Assembly (NCBI GenBank): GCA_947480335.1
Contig: CANKCB010000018.1
Location: forward strand, 1-45,073
Origin: Gammaproteobacteria bacterium
GTDB lineage: Bacteria > Pseudomonadota > Gammaproteobacteria > Eutrophobiales > Eutrophobiaceae
Direction: 5' to 3'
DNA: 45,073 nt
Below, in pieces: positions 4,638-12,051 of the stretch. The notes under the pieces were generated by a model. The model ran no database searches and had not been told where the DNA came from. It saw only the letters and a program-made list of their open reading frames with translations. The translations under genes and the position numbers were made by a program. The number at the start of each line of letters is the position of its first letter. The stretch's first letter is position 1.

Positions 4638-6784
4638 TGCCTGCGCCAGCGATGATAACGCTCCAGCCAGTGCAATACTTTCTGTGGCGCATGATTTCGT
4701 TTCCACAGCCCTGCCACATATTTGTTTGCTTCAGACAAGGTTGGATACGTGTGAATTGTTGACAGGATTTTATTCAGTCCCAATCCCCAACGTATCGCCA
4801 GCACAAATTCGGCCAGCCGTTCACCGGCCTGTTCACCCGCAATCGAAACGCCGAGTATCCGATCCGTGCCCGGTACCGTCAGCACCTTGATAAAACCGGC
4901 TTGCACACTGTCAGCAATCGCACGATCCAGTTCCTGCATCGGATAACGGGTGATTTCATAAGCAATGCCTTTTGAGTTTGCTTCCTGCTCATTCAGTCCT
5001 ACCCGCGCCAGCTCCGGATCAGTGAATGTGGTCGAAGGTATCACGCGATATTCCACCCGAAACTTTCGCAGAGCTCCAAACAGTGCGTTCACGCTGGCAT
5101 GCCAGGCTTGATGAGCTGCAGTATGGGTAAACTGATATGGCCCGGCGACATCTCCTGCGGCATAAATATTCGGATACAGGGTTTGCAGATAGTCGTTGGT
5201 AGTAACCGTACCTTTAACCGGCATGCCCAGTTCCTCCAGACCATAACCACTCAGCCGTGGCACCCGACCGACCGCACAGATCAATGCATCAAAGCCGATA
5301 CGGTGTGTCTGTCCATGTTGTTCAACGACAAGATACTTCTCGCCCGTCTCCACCTCGCAACGTACGGCCTGATGTCCGGTCAGTACAGTGATGCCTTCTG
5401 CAGCAAAGGTTTTTTCTACCAGAGAGGACACCTCAATATCTTCACGCAGCAACAAACGATCTGCTTTTTCGATCTGGGTCACTTGTGAGCCCAGCCGTGC
5501 CATCGCTTGTGCCAGCTCGCAACCTATTGGTCCACCACCGAGGATAAGCAGTCGCGCCGGTGGTGCATCTTGCGTGGCAAAATAGTTCCACACCGTATCG
5601 CTGGTCAGATAACCGGTCTGATCCAGACCAGGAATCGGCGGAACAAAAGGCTGCGCACCGGTGGCAAGCACGATGCTGCGTGTAGTCAGTCGTTGGGTTT
5701 CACCGGTAGCAAGACGAATTTCTACCGTCCACGGATCCAGCAGTCGTGCATGACCTTGCAACACCTCCACACCGAGTCCGGTATAGCGTGCAATACTGTC
5801 ATGCGGTTCGATCTCGCGGATCACATGTTGCACCCGTGCCATGATCTGCCGGAATGAGAACTGTGGATTGCCCGCCTGTAGTCCGTACTGATCTGCATGT
5901 CGGAGTTGATGTGCAACGCGTGCGCTTTTGATCAGCGTCTTGCTCGGCACACAACCATAATTCAGACAATCGCCACCCATTTTGTGTGATTCGATCAGCG
6001 TCACTTTGGCCTTCACAGTCGCTGCGATGTACGCCGAAACCAAACCGGCTGCACCGGCACCGATCACAATCAGGTTGCGATCATATTTGGCAGGTCGTGA
6101 CCAGCGGGCATAGACCTTTTTGTTTCGCCAGTATTCCAGAATTGTTTTTGCCAGCCAGGGCAATAGTGCCAGCAGACCAAAGGCCGTCAGTATCGAACCT
6201 GAGTACAAATCAGATACACTGTTCAGTTGTGCCAGCTGTGTGCCCGCATTCACATAAACGAATGTTGCAGGCAGCATGCCTAGCTGGCTGATGAAATAAA
6301 AACGTGTGGCTGGTATTGGTGTCAGCCCCATCAACAGATTGATCAGAAAAAACGGAAACACCGGAACCAGTCGCAGGCTGAACAGATACAAGCCACCATC
6401 TCGTGCGATACCGTCATTGATAGTGGTTAAACGATTGCCAAAACGTGACTGCACCGTGTCACGCAACAAATATCGCGAAACCAGAAACGCGAGCAAGGCA
6501 CCCAGACTGGAAGAGAACGATACCAGCAATGTTCCCCACCACAGTCCGAACAGTGCGCCACCTGCCAAAGACATGATCAAGGCACCGGGCAAGGACAGGG
6601 CCGCGATGGTCACATACACAACAAAATAGATAACCAGAGCGAGTATGGGAGAGTGATCACATAAAGCCTGTAAACTTGCCTGACCTGCTTGCAGACTCTC
6701 AAAGGTCAACCAGTGGCGGGTATCCAGGAACCAGCCGGCTGCCAGCAGCAACACAATCAGCAACACGACCAGCCATTTTTTCAT
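4634..6784 (-). CDS. fusion of a TVP38/TMEM64 membrane domain with a mercuric-reductase-like disulfide oxidoreductase
   Basis: 716 residues from the ATG at 6784 (ATGA overlap with arsS). Residues about 1-215 form a TVP38/TMEM64 (DedA-like, VTT) membrane domain with several hydrophobic helices and the motif 'RLVPVFPFFLINLLMGL'. From about residue 235 comes a full pyridine nucleotide-disulfide oxidoreductase: FAD motif LIVIGAGAAGLVSAYIA, redox pair GGDCLNYGCVPSK, NAD motif ILGGGPIGCELAQAM, and a dimerisation domain with HTYPTLSEA. The reductase half resembles MerA/dihydrolipoamide dehydrogenase, but there is no heavy-metal-associated domain. Such fusions accompany arsS-type clusters. Substrate unknown; a thiol or metalloid redox role is an inference. 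Confidence 0.88.
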   Translation of the reverse strand: MKKWLVVLLIVLLLAAGWFLDTRHWLTFESLQAGQASLQALCDHSPILALVIYFVVYVTIAALSLPGALIMSLAGGALFGLWWGTLLVSFSSSLGALLAFLVSRYLLRDTVQSRFGNRLTTINDGIARDGGLYLFSLRLVPVFPFFLINLLMGLTPIPATRFYFISQLGMLPATFVYVNAGTQLAQLNSVSDLYSGSILTAFGLLALLPWLAKTILEYWRNKKVYARWSRPAKYDRNLIVIGAGAAGLVSAYIAATVKAKVTLIESHKMGGDCLNYGCVPSKTLIKSARVAHQLRHADQYGLQAGNPQFSFRQIMARVQHVIREIEPHDSIARYTGLGVEVLQGHARLLDPWTVEIRLATGETQRLTTRSIVLATGAQPFVPPIPGLDQTGYLTSDTVWNYFATQDAPPARLLILGGGPIGCELAQAMARLGSQVTQIEKADRLLLREDIEVSSLVEKTFAAEGITVLTGHQAVRCEVETGEKYLVVEQHGQTHRIGFDALICAVGRVPRLSGYGLEELGMPVKGTVTTNDYLQTLYPNIYAAGDVAGPYQFTHTAAHQAWHASVNALFGALRKFRVEYRVIPSTTFTDPELARVGLNEQEANSKGIAYEITRYPMQELDRAIADSVQAGFIKVLTVPGTDRILGVSIAGEQAGERLAEFVLAIRWGLGLNKILSTIHTYPTLSEANKYVAGLWKRNHAPQKVLHWLERYHRWRRQ

Positions 6785-7761
6785 TCGAAGCTTCCGCTGA
6801 AGGCACCGCCACAACTGGAACCACTGCCAGCGGTGCAACCGTAACAATGATCAGCAACACGAATTGGTGCGCCTTGCGGATCGGTGTGCAACAGATCACG
6901 CAAATGCGGACGATTGGTTTTGAATGTCCGACCTGGCATGGCCAGACCAAGCATCTGGTTGAAGTCACAATCGTACAGATAACCTTGCCAGTCGACACTG
7001 ATAAGATTGCGGCACATTACCTGCTCCAGATTCGCTGCAGCATAATTGTGTTTCAGCAAGCTCATATAGTTTTCAAACTGACCTTTGGATATCAGCGTCG
7101 AACCAAAACGCTGGATGGGCATATTGGTCAGCGCATACAGCCGGTTAAACTGGATATCAAAGCGCTTGCCCAGCTCGCGCTTGTAATCGGATTCCAGCTT
7201 GTGCTGGTCAGGCGGTAACACCGGGCCTTGCGGGTTATACACCAGATTCAGTGTCAGACCGGAACCTTCCACACCGTAACCGAGCCGGTTCAGTTCAAGC
7301 AAGCCTGTAATACTGCGTTCAAACACGCCGGTGCCACGCTGCTTGTCCACATTCTCCAGCGAGTAACAGGGCAAGGAAGCGATAATCTCCACCTGTTGTT
7401 CTGCCAGAAAGGCTGCAAGGTCTTCCTGCCCGGGTTCAGACAACACGGTCAGATTACATCGATCTATTACCTGCACACCTTGTTTACGGGCAGATACGAC
7501 CAGTGTACGAAATCCTTCATGCAATTCCGGTGCACCACCTGTCAGATCGAGTGTACCTATACGACGTGCACGGATGACTTCCGGAATCAGTGCCAGCATT
7601 TCTGCATTCATCATTTCGGTACGGGTCGGGCCAGCATTCACATGACAATGCACACAGCTCTGGTTGCATTTATAGCCAAGGTTCACCTGCAGCGTTTCCA
7701 GCGTGTTGCGATGAATTGCGGGAAAGTCTGAAACTTCCAGTAAGGGCAAGGTAGCGTGCAT
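6781..7761 (-). CDS. arsS: arsenosugar biosynthesis radical SAM protein ArsS
   Basis: 326 residues with the radical SAM cluster motif Cys32-x3-Cys36-x2-Cys39 (KCNQSCVHCHVNAGPTR), a 'LDLTGGAPELH' SAM-binding strand, and a Cys-rich tail with CYGCTAGSGSSCGGAF. This combination is diagnostic of the TIGR04167/ArsS family, which attaches the adenosyl-derived carbon to methylated arsenic on the route to arsenosugars. A GAGGAA Shine-Dalgarno precedes the ATG. It starts 71 bases after the bufferin operon's last gene and overlaps the TVP38-reductase gene by ATGA. No arsM methyltransferase gene is in the window, so the pathway is incomplete here. Confidence 0.9.
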   Translation of the reverse strand: MHATLPLLEVSDFPAIHRNTLETLQVNLGYKCNQSCVHCHVNAGPTRTEMMNAEMLALIPEVIRARRIGTLDLTGGAPELHEGFRTLVVSARKQGVQVIDRCNLTVLSEPGQEDLAAFLAEQQVEIIASLPCYSLENVDKQRGTGVFERSITGLLELNRLGYGVEGSGLTLNLVYNPQGPVLPPDQHKLESDYKRELGKRFDIQFNRLYALTNMPIQRFGSTLISKGQFENYMSLLKHNYAAANLEQVMCRNLISVDWQGYLYDCDFNQMLGLAMPGRTFKTNRPHLRDLLHTDPQGAPIRVADHCYGCTAGSGSSCGGAFSGSFE

Positions 7762-7832
7762 GGGTTCCTCGTGTGACTTGTTTTTAATGTCTGTAGTAAT
7801 GCACAGACTATAACAGTGTGCGGACTAACACA

Positions 7833-8300
7833 TCATTTCAAACCAATCAGCCTGTCCACGGACACGCTGCCAGCACCATACCGTAACAGATACGCCAGCA
7901 GGGCCACCCAGAGTATATGGACATTCCAGGCCTCGGGGTAAACAAACAGTTGGATCACGGTGGTCATCGCCAGTAATCCGAGTGCACTCAAGCGTGTGGC
8001 CAGACCCAAAACAATCGCGAGTGACAGGAAAAATTCACCGAATGTGGCCAAATAGGCGGCCAGATCCGATGGTAACAGTGGTACGCGATACTCTTGTGCA
8101 AACAATAAAAACGTGCTCTCGGACAGGTTCCAGAACTTCCAGTTCTGACCGAATAGTTCCCAACCTGAAATTTTGGTCTGGGCCGAACGCCAGAATACCG
8201 AGGAGATAGCAATCCGGATCAACAGTGCTATCAGCCATTCAGGTAACAGTCGCAGTATGGGTTCGACTCGATTGGCCAGGTTACTCAGTATAGTGGGCAT
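7833..8300 (-). CDS. bufD: DoxX-family membrane protein (BufD position)
   Basis: 155 residues with about four hydrophobic segments and DoxX-family features (RIAISSVFWRSAQTKISGW near the start, GEFFLSLAIVLGLATRLSA in the middle). In bufferin operons the fourth gene encodes a DoxX-like membrane protein of unproven role. The ATG lies four bases after the bufC stop. The gene name rests on operon position and family, not on a tested function. The 71-base gap to arsS has no clear terminator, so read-through is plausible. Confidence 0.82.
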   Translation of the reverse strand: MPTILSNLANRVEPILRLLPEWLIALLIRIAISSVFWRSAQTKISGWELFGQNWKFWNLSESTFLLFAQEYRVPLLPSDLAAYLATFGEFFLSLAIVLGLATRLSALGLLAMTTVIQLFVYPEAWNVHILWVALLAYLLRYGAGSVSVDRLIGLK

Positions 8301-8304
8301 ATGT

Positions 8305-9087
8305 TTAACACTCTTCTGGTTTAATCAATAGTCCTGCTGCGAGACTATGGGCGAAGACTTCCGTCGGCAAAAAATCCGGATTGATTTGTTGAACATCCAG
8401 CACCGCCTCGCCCAGTGTCTTGCCTTGCTGCAACGCCGTCAGAAATATAAATGTTTCGCCGGATTCAGGAATAATCATGACTTCCTGTTCCGGTCGGCAG
8501 ACACAAAGAAATTCACCTCCGGCATCCAGATCGATCGTGTCATCATTGGATCTGTCCGGTTGATTAGCCGCCCAGATTCGACTAGCTGGAAATTCCGACT
8601 GCATCAGCCTGACCGAAGGATGCAAGGCAAGACGTGTCTGTGCGAGCTGACTGATGGGTATCGATGCCAGCTCTGTAGTGGTCAACGGCACGCTGTCCTG
8701 TGCATGATAGGACTGATGCCAGGCCAGTTCGAGTCGTGCGACATCAATCAGCCAGCCTAGCTTCTGTGTATGTTCAAATTGTTTCAGGAAATCGGGAAAT
8801 GTGTGTCCCAGATACACCATGGCCGCACGTTCCGGCGGGTTTTGGTGCAGATATACGGAAGCGGTCGCATTAAAAAAATTATCGCCAGTCAGTTTTTTAA
8901 CTACTGGATACAAATCAGCCAGCGCATTGCCGAGCGAATAAAACACATTGTTTCGATGAATATCCAACCGCCGGTTTTTGATCAAGGTTGACTCTCCCTT
9001 GATCAAATCGAGCACCTGCTGGTTATCAGGATCAAACAACGAATCGGAAAACTGCTGCTGCAAGGTACCCAGTAGAGTGTGGTTCAT
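8305..9087 (-). CDS. bufC: DUF2063-family bufferin maturation partner (BufC/HvfC)
   Basis: About 260 residues from ATG 9087, placed one base after the bufB stop; an in-frame start further upstream would lie inside bufB. The N-terminus (LQQQFSDSLFDPDN, 'RLDIHRNNVFYSLGNALADLYP') is the DUF2063/HvfC domain, and a winged C-terminal region ends 'LAAGLLIKPEEC'. Proteins of this family are partners of DUF692/MNIO enzymes and are thought to present the precursor peptide. It is cytoplasmic by sequence. Confidence 0.87.
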   Translation of the reverse strand: MNHTLLGTLQQQFSDSLFDPDNQQVLDLIKGESTLIKNRRLDIHRNNVFYSLGNALADLYPVVKKLTGDNFFNATASVYLHQNPPERAAMVYLGHTFPDFLKQFEHTQKLGWLIDVARLELAWHQSYHAQDSVPLTTTELASIPISQLAQTRLALHPSVRLMQSEFPASRIWAANQPDRSNDDTIDLDAGGEFLCVCRPEQEVMIIPESGETFIFLTALQQGKTLGEAVLDVQQINPDFLPTEVFAHSLAAGLLIKPEEC

Positions 9088-9088
9088 C

Positions 9089-9943
9089 TCAAAACACTTC
9101 CGTACGCATCGGAGCCAGTACACAATTGGCGATATCATTAGCGCGAGTGCCTTCTGCCAACAATATCGGCAATGTCGGCACATCGGTGTCCCATTCAATC
9201 ATGACCGGCAAGCGTCTTGCTGCCCGTTGCAGCACGTGCTCGTGTAGTGCCCACACATCTTCTTTCACGACGGAACCATGATCATCAATCCGGATTTCCA
9301 TTCCGTCTACTTGTTGCACACTGTGACCGGCCAGATGGATCTCACCCACGGCTGCCAGTGGCACACCTTTAATATAATAATGTGGATCCAGACCAAGATT
9401 GGTACAGGAAACATAGATATTATTTACATCCAGCAATAAACCACAGCCGGTCCGGCGTGTCAGTTCGGTCAGAAATTCCGGTTCCGACAGCGTACTGTTA
9501 TTGAAATCAAGATAGCTGGAAGGATTTTCAATCAGTATGTTTCTGCCTAGCGCTTCCTGTACACGCTGGATATTGTCGCTCACAATCGCCAGACTTTCCT
9601 CGTGATACGGCAACGGCAACAGATCATTCAGAAACACATTATTATAGTGACTCCAGGCCAGATGCTCGGACACCTGTGCCGGTTGATAGCGTTTGACCAG
9701 TTCGACCAGCGCCTGCAGATGTTGCTTGTCTATGCCATGCGCCGATCCCAGTGACATGCCTACACCGTGCATCGACAAGGGATAGTGTTCACAAATAGCG
9801 TGCAGATAGTGGTGCGGTGGCCCACCGTTACCCATAAAATTTTCAGGATGGATTTCAAACCAGCCAGTGGCAGGCAGCTTATCCAGTATCTGCCGATAAT
9901 GTACTGGTTTCAGGCTGATACCCGATGTGGCTGGCAAGGACAT
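9089..9943 (-). CDS. bufB: DUF692/MNIO multinuclear iron oxidase that modifies the bufferin precursor
   Basis: About 284 residues from ATG 9943 (9952 is an alternative). It shows the run of DUF692 metal-ligand motifs in order: HPENFMGNGG, 'SMHGVGMSLGSAHG', SEHLAWS, ENPSSYL, LLLDVNNIYVSC, GEIHLAGHS and DDHGSVV. MNIO enzymes use an iron cluster and oxygen to convert peptide cysteines. In bufferins, cysteines become thiooxazole-type heterocycles that bind copper (established for the family, from memory). It lies about 107 bases after bufA, separated by a strong stem-loop, and is tightly coupled to bufC. Confidence 0.92.
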   Translation of the reverse strand: MSLPATSGISLKPVHYRQILDKLPATGWFEIHPENFMGNGGPPHHYLHAICEHYPLSMHGVGMSLGSAHGIDKQHLQALVELVKRYQPAQVSEHLAWSHYNNVFLNDLLPLPYHEESLAIVSDNIQRVQEALGRNILIENPSSYLDFNNSTLSEPEFLTELTRRTGCGLLLDVNNIYVSCTNLGLDPHYYIKGVPLAAVGEIHLAGHSVQQVDGMEIRIDDHGSVVKEDVWALHEHVLQRAARRLPVMIEWDTDVPTLPILLAEGTRANDIANCVLAPMRTEVF

Positions 9944-9980
9944 AATGAACATCAGGTTGGCAGAGGCTAGATCTGTCAGT

Positions 9981-10008
9981 GCTGGCCGGCACAACAGTGC
10001 CGACCAGC
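9981..10008 (-). other. intercistronic stem-loop between bufA and bufB
   Basis: A 12-base-pair stem with a 4-base loop (GCTGGTCGGCAC / GTGCCGGCCAGC on the transcribed strand, one G-U pair). It lies in the gap between the precursor and enzyme genes and has no following U run, so it is not a standard terminator. A role in mRNA 3' protection or in lowering enzyme expression relative to precursor is inferred. Confidence 0.6.
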
Positions 10009-10050
10009 CCGGATTAAAACAGGATCATTCCTGTCGCAGAGTTGACAGGC

Positions 10051-10326
10051 TTATTTCTTTGCTTCAATCGCTGCCAGACTGCCACCGACCAGTTTTTCGC
10101 AGGTGCCGGCCAGAACGAACGTCCAGGCATCGCCTTGAGCATCTGTTTTGCTGGTGCCAGCACAGGTGGTGCCCGGTCCACTTGCGCAATCATTCTTGCC
10201 AGCCTTGGCCACACCATAACATTTTTCAGTGGCAGCCTTGTCCTGGGCTGCAGCACCGTTGGCGACCAGCAATATCGCTGCGGCCAATGCACCGGTGACG
10301 GCCATCGATTTGTTCAGATTCTTCAT
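10051..10326 (-). CDS. bufA: BufA1-family bufferin precursor peptide (DUF2282)
   Basis: 91 residues. A Sec signal peptide spans residues 1-28 (hydrophobic core [12 protein letters not shown], cleavage after AAAQ). The mature part has four cysteines at 36, 47, 55 and 76 in the DUF2282 pattern: [23 protein letters not shown] and [12 protein letters not shown]. This is the precursor of a periplasmic copper-binding ribosomal peptide. It is first in the bufABCD order and is preceded by GAGGATTG as Shine-Dalgarno. Copper or oxidant-responsive control is known for some relatives; no regulator gene is adjacent here. Confidence 0.93.
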
Positions 10327-10496: not shown

Positions 10497-11306
10497 TTAC
10501 CGGGAAAATGGCATGATCAGCATGCCAGAGAGCCGGTTTACCTGTTCCGGGCTACGTAAGTTCGGCAGCCCGATTGTCATCATTTCATGACCGGCTAATG
10601 GCTTTGCCTTATACGTACCGAACAGATGATCCCAACAAGACAAATTGAATCCAAAATTGCTATTGGTCTCATCGCGTTCAATTGAATGGTGTACCCGATG
10701 CATGTCCGGCGTCACCACCAGCTTACGCAACATACGATCGACATCAACAGGCATTCGCACATTACTATGATTGAACAAGGCGCCGGCATTCAGTAAGACT
10801 TCAAAAATCACGACAGCAATCACCGGTGGCCCGAGTAATAAAATGGCGACAAACTTGATAAACATCGACAGCAGGATTTCAAGTGGATGAAAACGAATTC
10901 CGGTGCTCACGTCATAATCCAGATCAGCATGATGAACCCGATGTATACGCCATAACACTGGCACGGCGTGCACCAGCACATGCTGGGCATAAATGATCAG
11001 ATCCAGTAGCAACACACTAAACATAACAGTCGGAAGCAACCGCAAGTCGAACCGGTTAAACAAGCCCCAGCCCAGTTGTGAAACTGTCAGGGCAAACCCA
11101 GCGGCAGCGGCAGGAAACAGAATCCGTATGAGCACAGTGTTAATCAGGACTATACCCAGATTGGAAGGCCAACGCTGCAACAACGGCAAGGTAGTCAGGC
11201 GACGCGGAGCCAGTGTTTCGAGTATGGCCATTAAAATAAACACCCCAGCAAAACTAACTGACCGTATGGTTACTTCATTTGCCAGTATCCAGTCAGACCA
11301 AGTCAT
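10497..11306 (-). CDS. sterol desaturase / fatty acid hydroxylase family membrane protein
   Basis: 269 residues with several membrane helices and the di-iron histidine clusters of the family: HVLVH, 'WRIHRVHHADLDYD', FHPLE and a late 'DMHRVHHSIERDETNSNFG'. Family members hydroxylate or desaturate lipids at the membrane; the substrate cannot be read here. It is upstream of the bufferin operon on the same strand with a 170-base gap that carries a promoter candidate, so it is probably a separate unit. The start at 11306 gives a normal family length. Confidence 0.85.
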   Translation of the reverse strand: MTWSDWILANEVTIRSVSFAGVFILMAILETLAPRRLTTLPLLQRWPSNLGIVLINTVLIRILFPAAAAGFALTVSQLGWGLFNRFDLRLLPTVMFSVLLLDLIIYAQHVLVHAVPVLWRIHRVHHADLDYDVSTGIRFHPLEILLSMFIKFVAILLLGPPVIAVVIFEVLLNAGALFNHSNVRMPVDVDRMLRKLVVTPDMHRVHHSIERDETNSNFGFNLSCWDHLFGTYKAKPLAGHEMMTIGLPNLRSPEQVNRLSGMLIMPFSR

Positions 11307-11455
11307 TGCATCCCTGCCCTTTATCAGGATTACGAAACTGTGACATAAGTGACAATTTGATTAATACAGTCATGTTCATCGCAGCGTGGGTATTATTCAA
11401 CTATATCATTACATTGATCTTTATCACATGTAGCCAAAATGATCAGTGAAACTGA

Positions 11456-11483
11456 TTGTATAACGCTATTAGTAGCCTATAAT
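11456..11483 (+). promoter_or_regulatory. sigma70-type promoter of the riboswitch-rhodanese transcript
   Basis: TTGTAT at 11456-11461 and a perfect TATAAT at 11478-11483 with a 16-base spacer. Predicted transcription starts near 11490, directly in front of the first base of the SAM-II aptamer. This tight fit supports both calls. Confidence 0.7.
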
Positions 11484-11491
11484 ACCTCGCA

Positions 11492-11544
11492 AGCGCTGAT
11501 TTGATCTCAGATTGCAGGCGCTAAATAAAAGTAGCTAAAGAGAG
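11492..11544 (+). ncRNA. SAM-II (SAM-alpha) riboswitch aptamer
   Basis: The stretch reproduces the SAM-II consensus in order: P1 strand AGCGC (11492-11496), the conserved TGATTTGA, then ATTGCA, the P1 return strand GCGCT (11518-11522), an A-rich linker AAATAAAAG, and the 3' pseudoknot strand GTAGCTAAAGAG. P1 is a perfect five-base-pair helix. SAM-II is a compact H-type pseudoknot that binds S-adenosylmethionine, best known upstream of methionine genes in alphaproteobacteria. There the 3' strand usually overlaps the Shine-Dalgarno. Here it does not: the next start codon is about 165 bases away and a terminator intervenes, which suggests transcriptional control. Confidence 0.86.
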
Positions 11545-11547
11545 TGG

Positions 11548-11593
11548 GCCTGTTCGAGCGTCTAGTATATTACGAGGCTGAACAGGTTTTTTT
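11548..11593 (+). terminator. intrinsic terminator after the SAM-II aptamer (attenuator)
   Basis: Stem CCTGTTC / GAACAGG (11549-11555 with 11580-11586), extended inward by AGCGTC/GAGGCT with one mismatch and followed by seven T's (11587-11593). It lies four bases beyond the aptamer and before the rhodanese gene. It would end transcription unless an alternative fold forms, so it is the likely expression platform. Confidence 0.8.
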
Positions 11594-11709
11594 GTGCCCG
11601 CGATATACTCCTGATATCTCCCGCTTCATCCTGTCGTATCCATAAAAAATAATTTACTTACTGCTGACAGGCGCACAAAATAAGTGTGCATTCATCAGGA
11701 GAATTCATC
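11594..11709 (+). other. leader between attenuator and rhodanese gene
   Basis: AT-rich leader without a convincing reading frame. A small hairpin GCACA/TGTGC (11673-11689) lies just ahead of the AGGAG Shine-Dalgarno at 11697-11701. The remainder of the gene-free stretch to the left (11307-11455) holds no recognisable feature. Confidence 0.4.
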
Positions 11710-12051
11710 ATGGCAAAACAATCTATTTTTTCCGGACTGCTCGCGGCACTGTTAATGATTTTTACCCTGCACACTCCGGCAGCTGAACCGACAGATAAAA
11801 TCTGGATCGATGTGCGCACAGCGGAAGAAAATCAGGAATCGTCGATACCGGGTCACCCGAACATTCTGTACACCGACATCGCTGATAAGATTTCTACGGT
11901 TACCACAGACAAGAATGCCCCAATCTATCTCTATTGCCGAACGGGCAGACGCTCTGGCATTGCCAAGGAAACGCTGGAACAACTCGGCTACACCAACGTG
12001 ACCAATGCCGGTGGAATTGATCAGGTCAGAGAACAATTACATAAACCGTAG
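11710..12051 (+). CDS. periplasmic rhodanese-domain sulfurtransferase (PspE-like)
   Basis: 113 residues from ATG 11710, chosen because AGGAG lies eight bases upstream; an earlier in-frame start at 11686 has no ribosome binding site. A signal peptide covers residues 1-25 (hydrophobic LLAALLMIFTL, ending PAAEP). The rhodanese domain follows: IWIDVRTAEE, the active loop 'IYLYCRTGRRS' with catalytic Cys76, and GYTNVTNAGGIDQV. Small periplasmic rhodaneses move sulfane sulfur, for example to thiols or cyanide. It is the only gene behind the SAM-II riboswitch, an unusual partner for that aptamer. It is followed by a convergent gene. Confidence 0.9.
   Translation: MAKQSIFSGLLAALLMIFTLHTPAAEPTDKIWIDVRTAEENQESSIPGHPNILYTDIADKISTVTTDKNAPIYLYCRTGRRSGIAKETLEQLGYTNVTNAGGIDQVREQLHKP

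Follow-up and report, generated by a model that had tools for sequence, protein, structure and literature searches.

A SAM-II leader before a PspE-like rhodanese gene in a gammaproteobacterial genus: possible SAM control of rhodanese

The stretch of DNA analysed here ("the window", 45,073 nucleotides of a gammaproteobacterial genome, G000) carries a SAM-II aptamer and an intrinsic terminator ahead of a gene encoding a PspE-like rhodanese. The pairing is real and rare, and its leader resembles that of metZ. A search of other genomes, proposed by the first-pass annotation, found the same aptamer-terminator-rhodanese order in G001, a genome of the same genus, the two rhodaneses being 69% identical. 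Control of the rhodanese by SAM is plausible, judging from the sequence, and a duplicated SAM-II attenuator acting on the gene is the best single reading of the locus, to which we give about an even chance of being right.

The aptamer matches the Rfam family RF00521 (SAM_alpha, or SAM-II) with 35.5 bits, at an E-value of 2e-6 in a search of 501 bases (11300-11800) and of 2.3e-6 with the whole genome as search space. The Rfam gathering score of this family is 36 bits, and the rhodanese leader, 0.5 bit short, is therefore missed at that threshold, where the window yields no match at all, although it is still far from chance. The shortfall may be of little weight, since 20 of the 41 metZ leaders of the family also remain below 36 bits. 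The covariance model thus returns a significant match that sits just under the curated cut-off. The orthologous leaders of G004 and G001 reach 29.3 and 26.6 bits, respectively. The consensus blocks GAUUUGA, UUGC, and GCUAAAG are all present and identical in the three orthologous leaders, in each of which P1 can pair; the near-consensus SAM-II aptamer claimed at first is supported. The Rfam structure line shows no P2; a candidate UCUC/GAGA pseudoknot pairing is seen in the rhodanese leader by eye only. G000 as a whole holds two RF00521 matches, this leader and a classical SAM-II leader of 41.5 bits before a gene which we take to be metZ. Between the terminator and the rhodanese start, cmscan of 11300-11800 detects no second aptamer (SAM-V or SAM-II) up to an E-value of 1.

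The promoter proposed upstream of the aptamer stands in its position, although its -35 hexamer has only three of six consensus matches and it is absent from a scan requiring nine of 12 hexamer matches. P1 starts about where transcription is expected to begin. The terminator announced after the aptamer is well supported: the region 11540-11596 folds at -19.2 kcal/mol, and none of 200 shuffles is as good (z -2.83). An automated terminator scan lists none in the leader, a probable result of its upper limit of eight bases per loop. The whole leader (aptamer plus terminator) of G000 is not unusually stable in a fold model that leaves out pseudoknots (z -1.23); 25 to 29 of 200 shuffles are as good for the three rhodanese-type leaders, with 25 both for G000 and for the metZ leader. 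The 15 apical bases of the terminator are identical (15/15) in G000, G001, and G004, whereas metZ terminator loops vary in the same genomes. The apical palindrome CTAGTATATTACGAG was considered as a protein operator and rejected, the pattern CTNGTANNNTACNAG being no commoner than its reversed control (15 versus 17 in five genomes; 3 versus 1 in G003 alone). A palindrome, CTAGTANNNTACTAG, also lies between genes that are presumably ispA and folE2 in G000, G001, G003, and G004 (L119:958, L121:1451, L122:1521, and L125:1310). These sites were likewise rejected as an explanation, as they do not account for the leader.

Table 1. Features of the rhodanese locus (positions in the window).
Feature	Position	Strand	Evidence
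Fatty acid hydroxylase family gene, divergent, syntenic anchor of the leader	10497..11306	-	Pfam PF04116
Promoter: TTGTAT (11456-11461), 16-base spacer, TATAAT (11478-11483)	11456..11483	+	Identical hexamers and spacing in 3/3 orthologous leaders
SAM-II aptamer	11483..11559	+	RF00521, 35.5 bits, E 2e-6; fold
P1 helix of the aptamer	11492-11497 / 11517-11522	+	Rfam alignment, fold
Aptamer core blocks GATTTGA, TTGC, GCTAAAG	last block 11534-11540	+	Rfam consensus alignment
3' strand of P1, possibly an alternative antiterminator strand pairing with GTTCGAGCGTCT (11552-11563)	11516..11526	+	Duplex energies
Intrinsic terminator: outer stem 11547-11555/11580-11588, apical part 11562-11576, T-run 11587-11593 (seven T)	11547..11593	+	Fold, z -2.83
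Candidate second promoter TTTACT-N17-CAAAAT	11653..11681	+	Hexamers and spacing shared with G001; no more than 8 of 12 matches
PspE-like rhodanese, N-terminal signal sequence (by eye), CRTGRRSG loop	11710..12051 (coding 11710-12048 plus stop)	+	Pfam PF00581

The rhodanese stands alone after the terminator, as had been annotated, with an AGGAG at 11697 and a Pfam Rhodanese match of 43.6 bits; its signal sequence would direct it to the periplasm. The solved structures nearest to it by E-value are 6mxv, with two rhodanese matches, and PspE (2jtq). Like the latter, a thiosulfate sulfurtransferase and its sequence relative, it has a single rhodanese domain. It differs in scoring below the cut-offs of both NCBIfam PspE models, with 84.5 bits against 102 for NF007627 and 75.8 against 126.3 for TIGR02981, and is therefore named PspE-like only; no psp genes were identified beside it among the eight proteins scanned. 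Further upstream, positions 6781-10326 of the window hold a gene cluster of DUF2282, MbnB/TglH/ChrH, DUF2063, and radical SAM/DUF3641 proteins (Pfam), which we take to resemble known metal-related peptide modification clusters.

A gammaproteobacterial background, presented at first as surprising for SAM-II, proves ordinary. At an E-value of 1e-3, 45 of the 53 family genomes have SAM_alpha matches (23 over the cut-off), as have 118 of the 369 genomes sampled from the class (31 over the cut-off) and none of 14 control genomes. The tmRNA of G000 (ARAGORN) is of the ordinary form with the tag ANDDNYALAA, which fits a gammaproteobacterium: alphaproteobacterial tmRNAs are split, and gammaproteobacterial tags have a typical look. 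An Rfam tmRNA match has no discriminating power by itself, as 14/14 control genomes also have one, and no 16S match was found in the G000 assembly. In the accessible parts of the literature, SAM-II is listed in gammaproteobacteria by Barrick and Breaker (PMC2258182), is given as most common in alpha-, beta-, and gammaproteobacteria in a paper of 2009 (PMC2704228), and has SAM_alpha targets in two alphaproteobacterial lineages in a 2014 survey (PMC4239095). Taxonomic oddity is therefore rejected.

What is rare is the target. The 53 SAM-II places of the family comprise 41 before metZ, two before a rhodanese (G000 and G001), and ten others: four before a 551-residue protein, three with a second aptamer-like stretch and small frames, one before a small frame (G005), one at a contig end (G009), and one, in G004, with no gene. 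The 551-residue protein, preceded by SAM-II and a terminator at L064, L065, L081, and L088 (G052, G054, G053, and G051, all of one genus), belongs to the sulfite/nitrite reductase family, an identity that comes from scanning the first 400 residues of one of the four, below model cut-offs, the rest being alike by eye; it may be a sulfur-assimilation target. With 41 metZ and four reductase places, cis control of sulfur genes is the rule in the family. Nine extra places found with a leader model include three metZ and no rhodanese. Of 130 places outside the family, 40 class loci were used, 27 of which hold a MetZ/MetY relative and, again, none a rhodanese. Single class loci are read by eye as metK, metF, metX, or metN, and one CysB-like start is an NCBIfam match below cut-off. 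By tblastn (E 1e-3), a rhodanese is thus found at two of 102 SAM-II places (2/53 in the family, 0/9 extra, 0/40 in the class), with only 234 bases in G009 and 690 bases in G005 available from the aptamer start. Within the literature searched, no paper linking a SAM riboswitch to a rhodanese was found.

Double arrangements are also seen in the family. At L069, L106, L067, and L062 (G064, G056, and G024), SAM-II and a terminator are followed, by reading, by a second aptamer-like stretch and then small proteins; only that of L062 is supported by Rfam, as a SAM-V of 38.7 bits, below the cut-off of 41. G064 holds two near-identical copies of this unit, each close to a frame that reads as an IS3-type orfA. 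At L107, L109, L137, L146, and L158, SAM-II and a terminator precede a second SAM-II-like aptamer (by reading), with unexpected or uncharacterised genes downstream, one of them read as an AAA-type ATPase. Such loci recall the tandem SAM-II/SAM-V and SAM-II/SAM-II riboswitches (PMC9481103), which, in the accessible part of that paper, share SAM-II with a terminator with the rhodanese leader and differ from it by their second aptamer.

Over the aptamer, the CCTG with which the terminator arm starts, and the T-run, the rhodanese-type leader can be aligned with its metZ counterpart in the same genome, of which it looks like a diverged duplicate. It shares with the metZ leaders of the family the aptamer core, the layout, and the type of terminator outer stem, and differs from them by its target (a rhodanese or, in G004, nothing) and by the loss of the antiterminator arm. 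This arm, CUUUAGC, which can pair with GCUAAAG, is exact at 44 of 53 family places and has one mismatch at two; all three rhodanese-type leaders have UUCGAGC instead. The loss is not unique, the arm being missing as well in three of the 41 metZ leaders (G022, G058, and G067) and in G005. Twelve leaders, ten of metZ and two before the reductase, were chosen for folding. In the truncated transcript, GCUAAAG is fully paired in 12/12 of them and in 0/3 of the rhodanese type, where two to five of its seven bases pair. The advantage of the terminator over the best antiterminator amounts to 10.7-11.6 kcal/mol in the rhodanese type, versus 3.3-8.9 in the 12 others, so that the rhodanese-type terminator may act at any SAM level. 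For the duplex of GCUAAAGAG with the terminator arm, three metZ leaders give -8.7 to -9.6 kcal/mol, a value reached by 2, 0, and 0 of 500 shuffles, and the rhodanese type gives -4.5 kcal/mol, reached by 141 to 146 of 500.

A candidate alternative partner is the 3' strand of P1, which would form with GUUCGAGCGUCU a duplex of -11.3 kcal/mol in G000, -14.6 in G001, and -10.6 in G004, energies also reached by 20, 13, and 100 of 500 shuffles, respectively; in G004, a T to A change has put a mismatch into the helix. When the whole aptamer is allowed as partner, 192 (G000), 131 (G001), and 290 (G004) of 500 shuffles do as well. This pairing is thus at best moderately unusual, and is moderate evidence compatible with cis control.

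The same leader is found at the same locus in three of the five genomes of the genus (G000, G001, and G004), each time pointing away from one shared neighbour, the fatty acid hydroxylase gene; in G002 and G003, this gene lies in a different neighbourhood and the leader is missing. A model (R1) built from the three leaders scores 128.1 (G001), 126.4 (G004), and 123.5 bits (G000) on these, its own building sequences, and the best match after them, out of 62 in the family, has 62.7 bits. MetZ is 96% identical between G001 and G004, 83-85% between G000 and these two, and 73-77% for G002 and G003, which stand apart; the leader therefore arose most simply before the first three split. A pattern scan of public genome contigs for further orthologues, possibly not covering the window's own records, matched only G004 and G001 contigs, and a scan of viral contigs gave no match. 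Between G000 and G001, seven of 103 leader bases differ, against 56% of the fourfold-degenerate sites of the rhodanese gene and 58-64% of those of the metZ and hydroxylase genes. Between G001 and G004, three of 103 bases differ, against 28-31% of the fourfold sites in three genes.

In G004, the promoter, aptamer, and terminator are almost unchanged, and neither a rhodanese nor any other co-directional gene follows before the convergent neighbour. The leader is succeeded by a spacer of 53 bases, after which comes the end of a convergent gene that reads as a photolyase; in G001, the rhodanese fills that gap. The sole rhodanese match in G004 is a different protein on another contig, with 37% identity. 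The locus comes from a single MAG assembly and may be misassembled. At a fourfold rate of 0.28, the probability of three or fewer differences in 103 bases is 2e-11 under neutrality since the split of G001 and G004. Assuming half of the divergence on the G004 branch, neutrality over only its last part gives P values of 0.068 at 0.4 and 0.022 at 0.5; a gene loss within the last 40% or less of that branch is compatible with the conservation of the leader, if constraint ended with the loss.

In the reading that we prefer, a duplicate of the metZ leader would have come to stand ahead of a periplasmic PspE-like rhodanese in a genome ancestral to G000, G001, and G004, and would be transcribed from its own promoter. 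Binding of SAM would stabilise the aptamer and let the downstream hairpin end transcription, keeping the rhodanese low when SAM is plentiful. The GCUAAAG/CUUUAGC antiterminator being gone, the 3' strand of P1 would pair with the 5' side of the terminator when SAM is absent, the most likely alternative if a switch exists. Cis control is favoured by the order kept in G000 and G001 despite their divergence at fourfold sites, and by an alternative duplex stronger where the rhodanese is present than in G004 with its mismatch. Against it count the leader kept in G004 without a gene, the terminator advantage, the moderate shuffle statistics, and a promoter-like pair after the terminator. A second promoter within 11594-11700 that supplies most of the rhodanese mRNA had been named beforehand as refuting the control of the rhodanese by the leader, and what is found there is a weak candidate, whose -10 hexamer begins 34 (G000) and 32 (G001) bases before the start codon. 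Only 0.75% of 2000 shuffled G000/G001 pairs share such a site, in a test designed after the pair had been seen in the alignment; some promoter-like site of that strength occurs in 49% and 22% of single shuffles, and G000 itself has another.

The leader could instead be a free-standing, SAM-binding small RNA of ~105 nt (11490-11593) with its own promoter and an always-strong terminator, acting in trans through its hairpin, the rhodanese being transcribed from the candidate second promoter. We regard this as rather unlikely, and doubt still more that it is an autonomous SAM-responsive regulator derived from a duplicated SAM-II, for which the rhodanese would be dispensable and separately promoted. 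The strong constraint on the G004 leader suggests an independent function, and the absent metZ-type antiterminator arm, the invariant apical sequence, and the hexamer pair shared before the rhodanese all point the same way. The constraint, however, is measured over the whole time since the G001/G004 split and not since the gene loss, and the case draws on three genomes, in only one of which, G004, the leader is retained without the gene. A search of the five genus genomes for a trans target of the 15-base loop (up to two mismatches) gave no convincing shared site, the sole recurrent one being the palindrome before the presumed folE2, which is present also in G003, a genome without the RNA. A precedent exists in S. 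meliloti, where, in the accessible part of the report, terminated SAM-II RNAs accumulate and the metZ leader yields the ~100-nt sRNA RZ, with a trans function raised but untested there (PMC9373788). Like the RNA proposed here, RZ, RA1, and RA2 are discrete RNAs of ~70-110 nt from SAM-II leaders (PMC9373788). They stand before metZ and metA, and that part of the report describes no gene-less copy, unlike the case of G004 (PMC9373788).

The same missing arm and large terminator advantage would also suit an ordinary duplicate with little function left, in which the terminator is constitutive, SAM is irrelevant, and the rhodanese was recently lost from G004. With G000 as outgroup, the alignment places one leader change on the G001 branch and two on the G004 branch, one of the latter in the terminator region, which fits an onset of drift. 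The RF00521 scores, which fall to 29.3 and 26.6 bits in G004 and G001, also speak for this reading. The few differences between the G000 and G001 leaders are unlike idle sequence at such fourfold divergence, and we hold a relic to be improbable.

Should the RNA act by itself, it would answer the question raised for RZ in S. meliloti, in the accessible part of that report, as to a trans job of terminated SAM-II RNAs (PMC9373788), and G004, where the locus has no downstream gene to confuse the result, would offer a natural test case. If, as we prefer, the RNA controls the rhodanese, the level of SAM would be tied to periplasmic sulfane sulfur handling, through a target absent from the remaining 100 SAM-II places that were checked.
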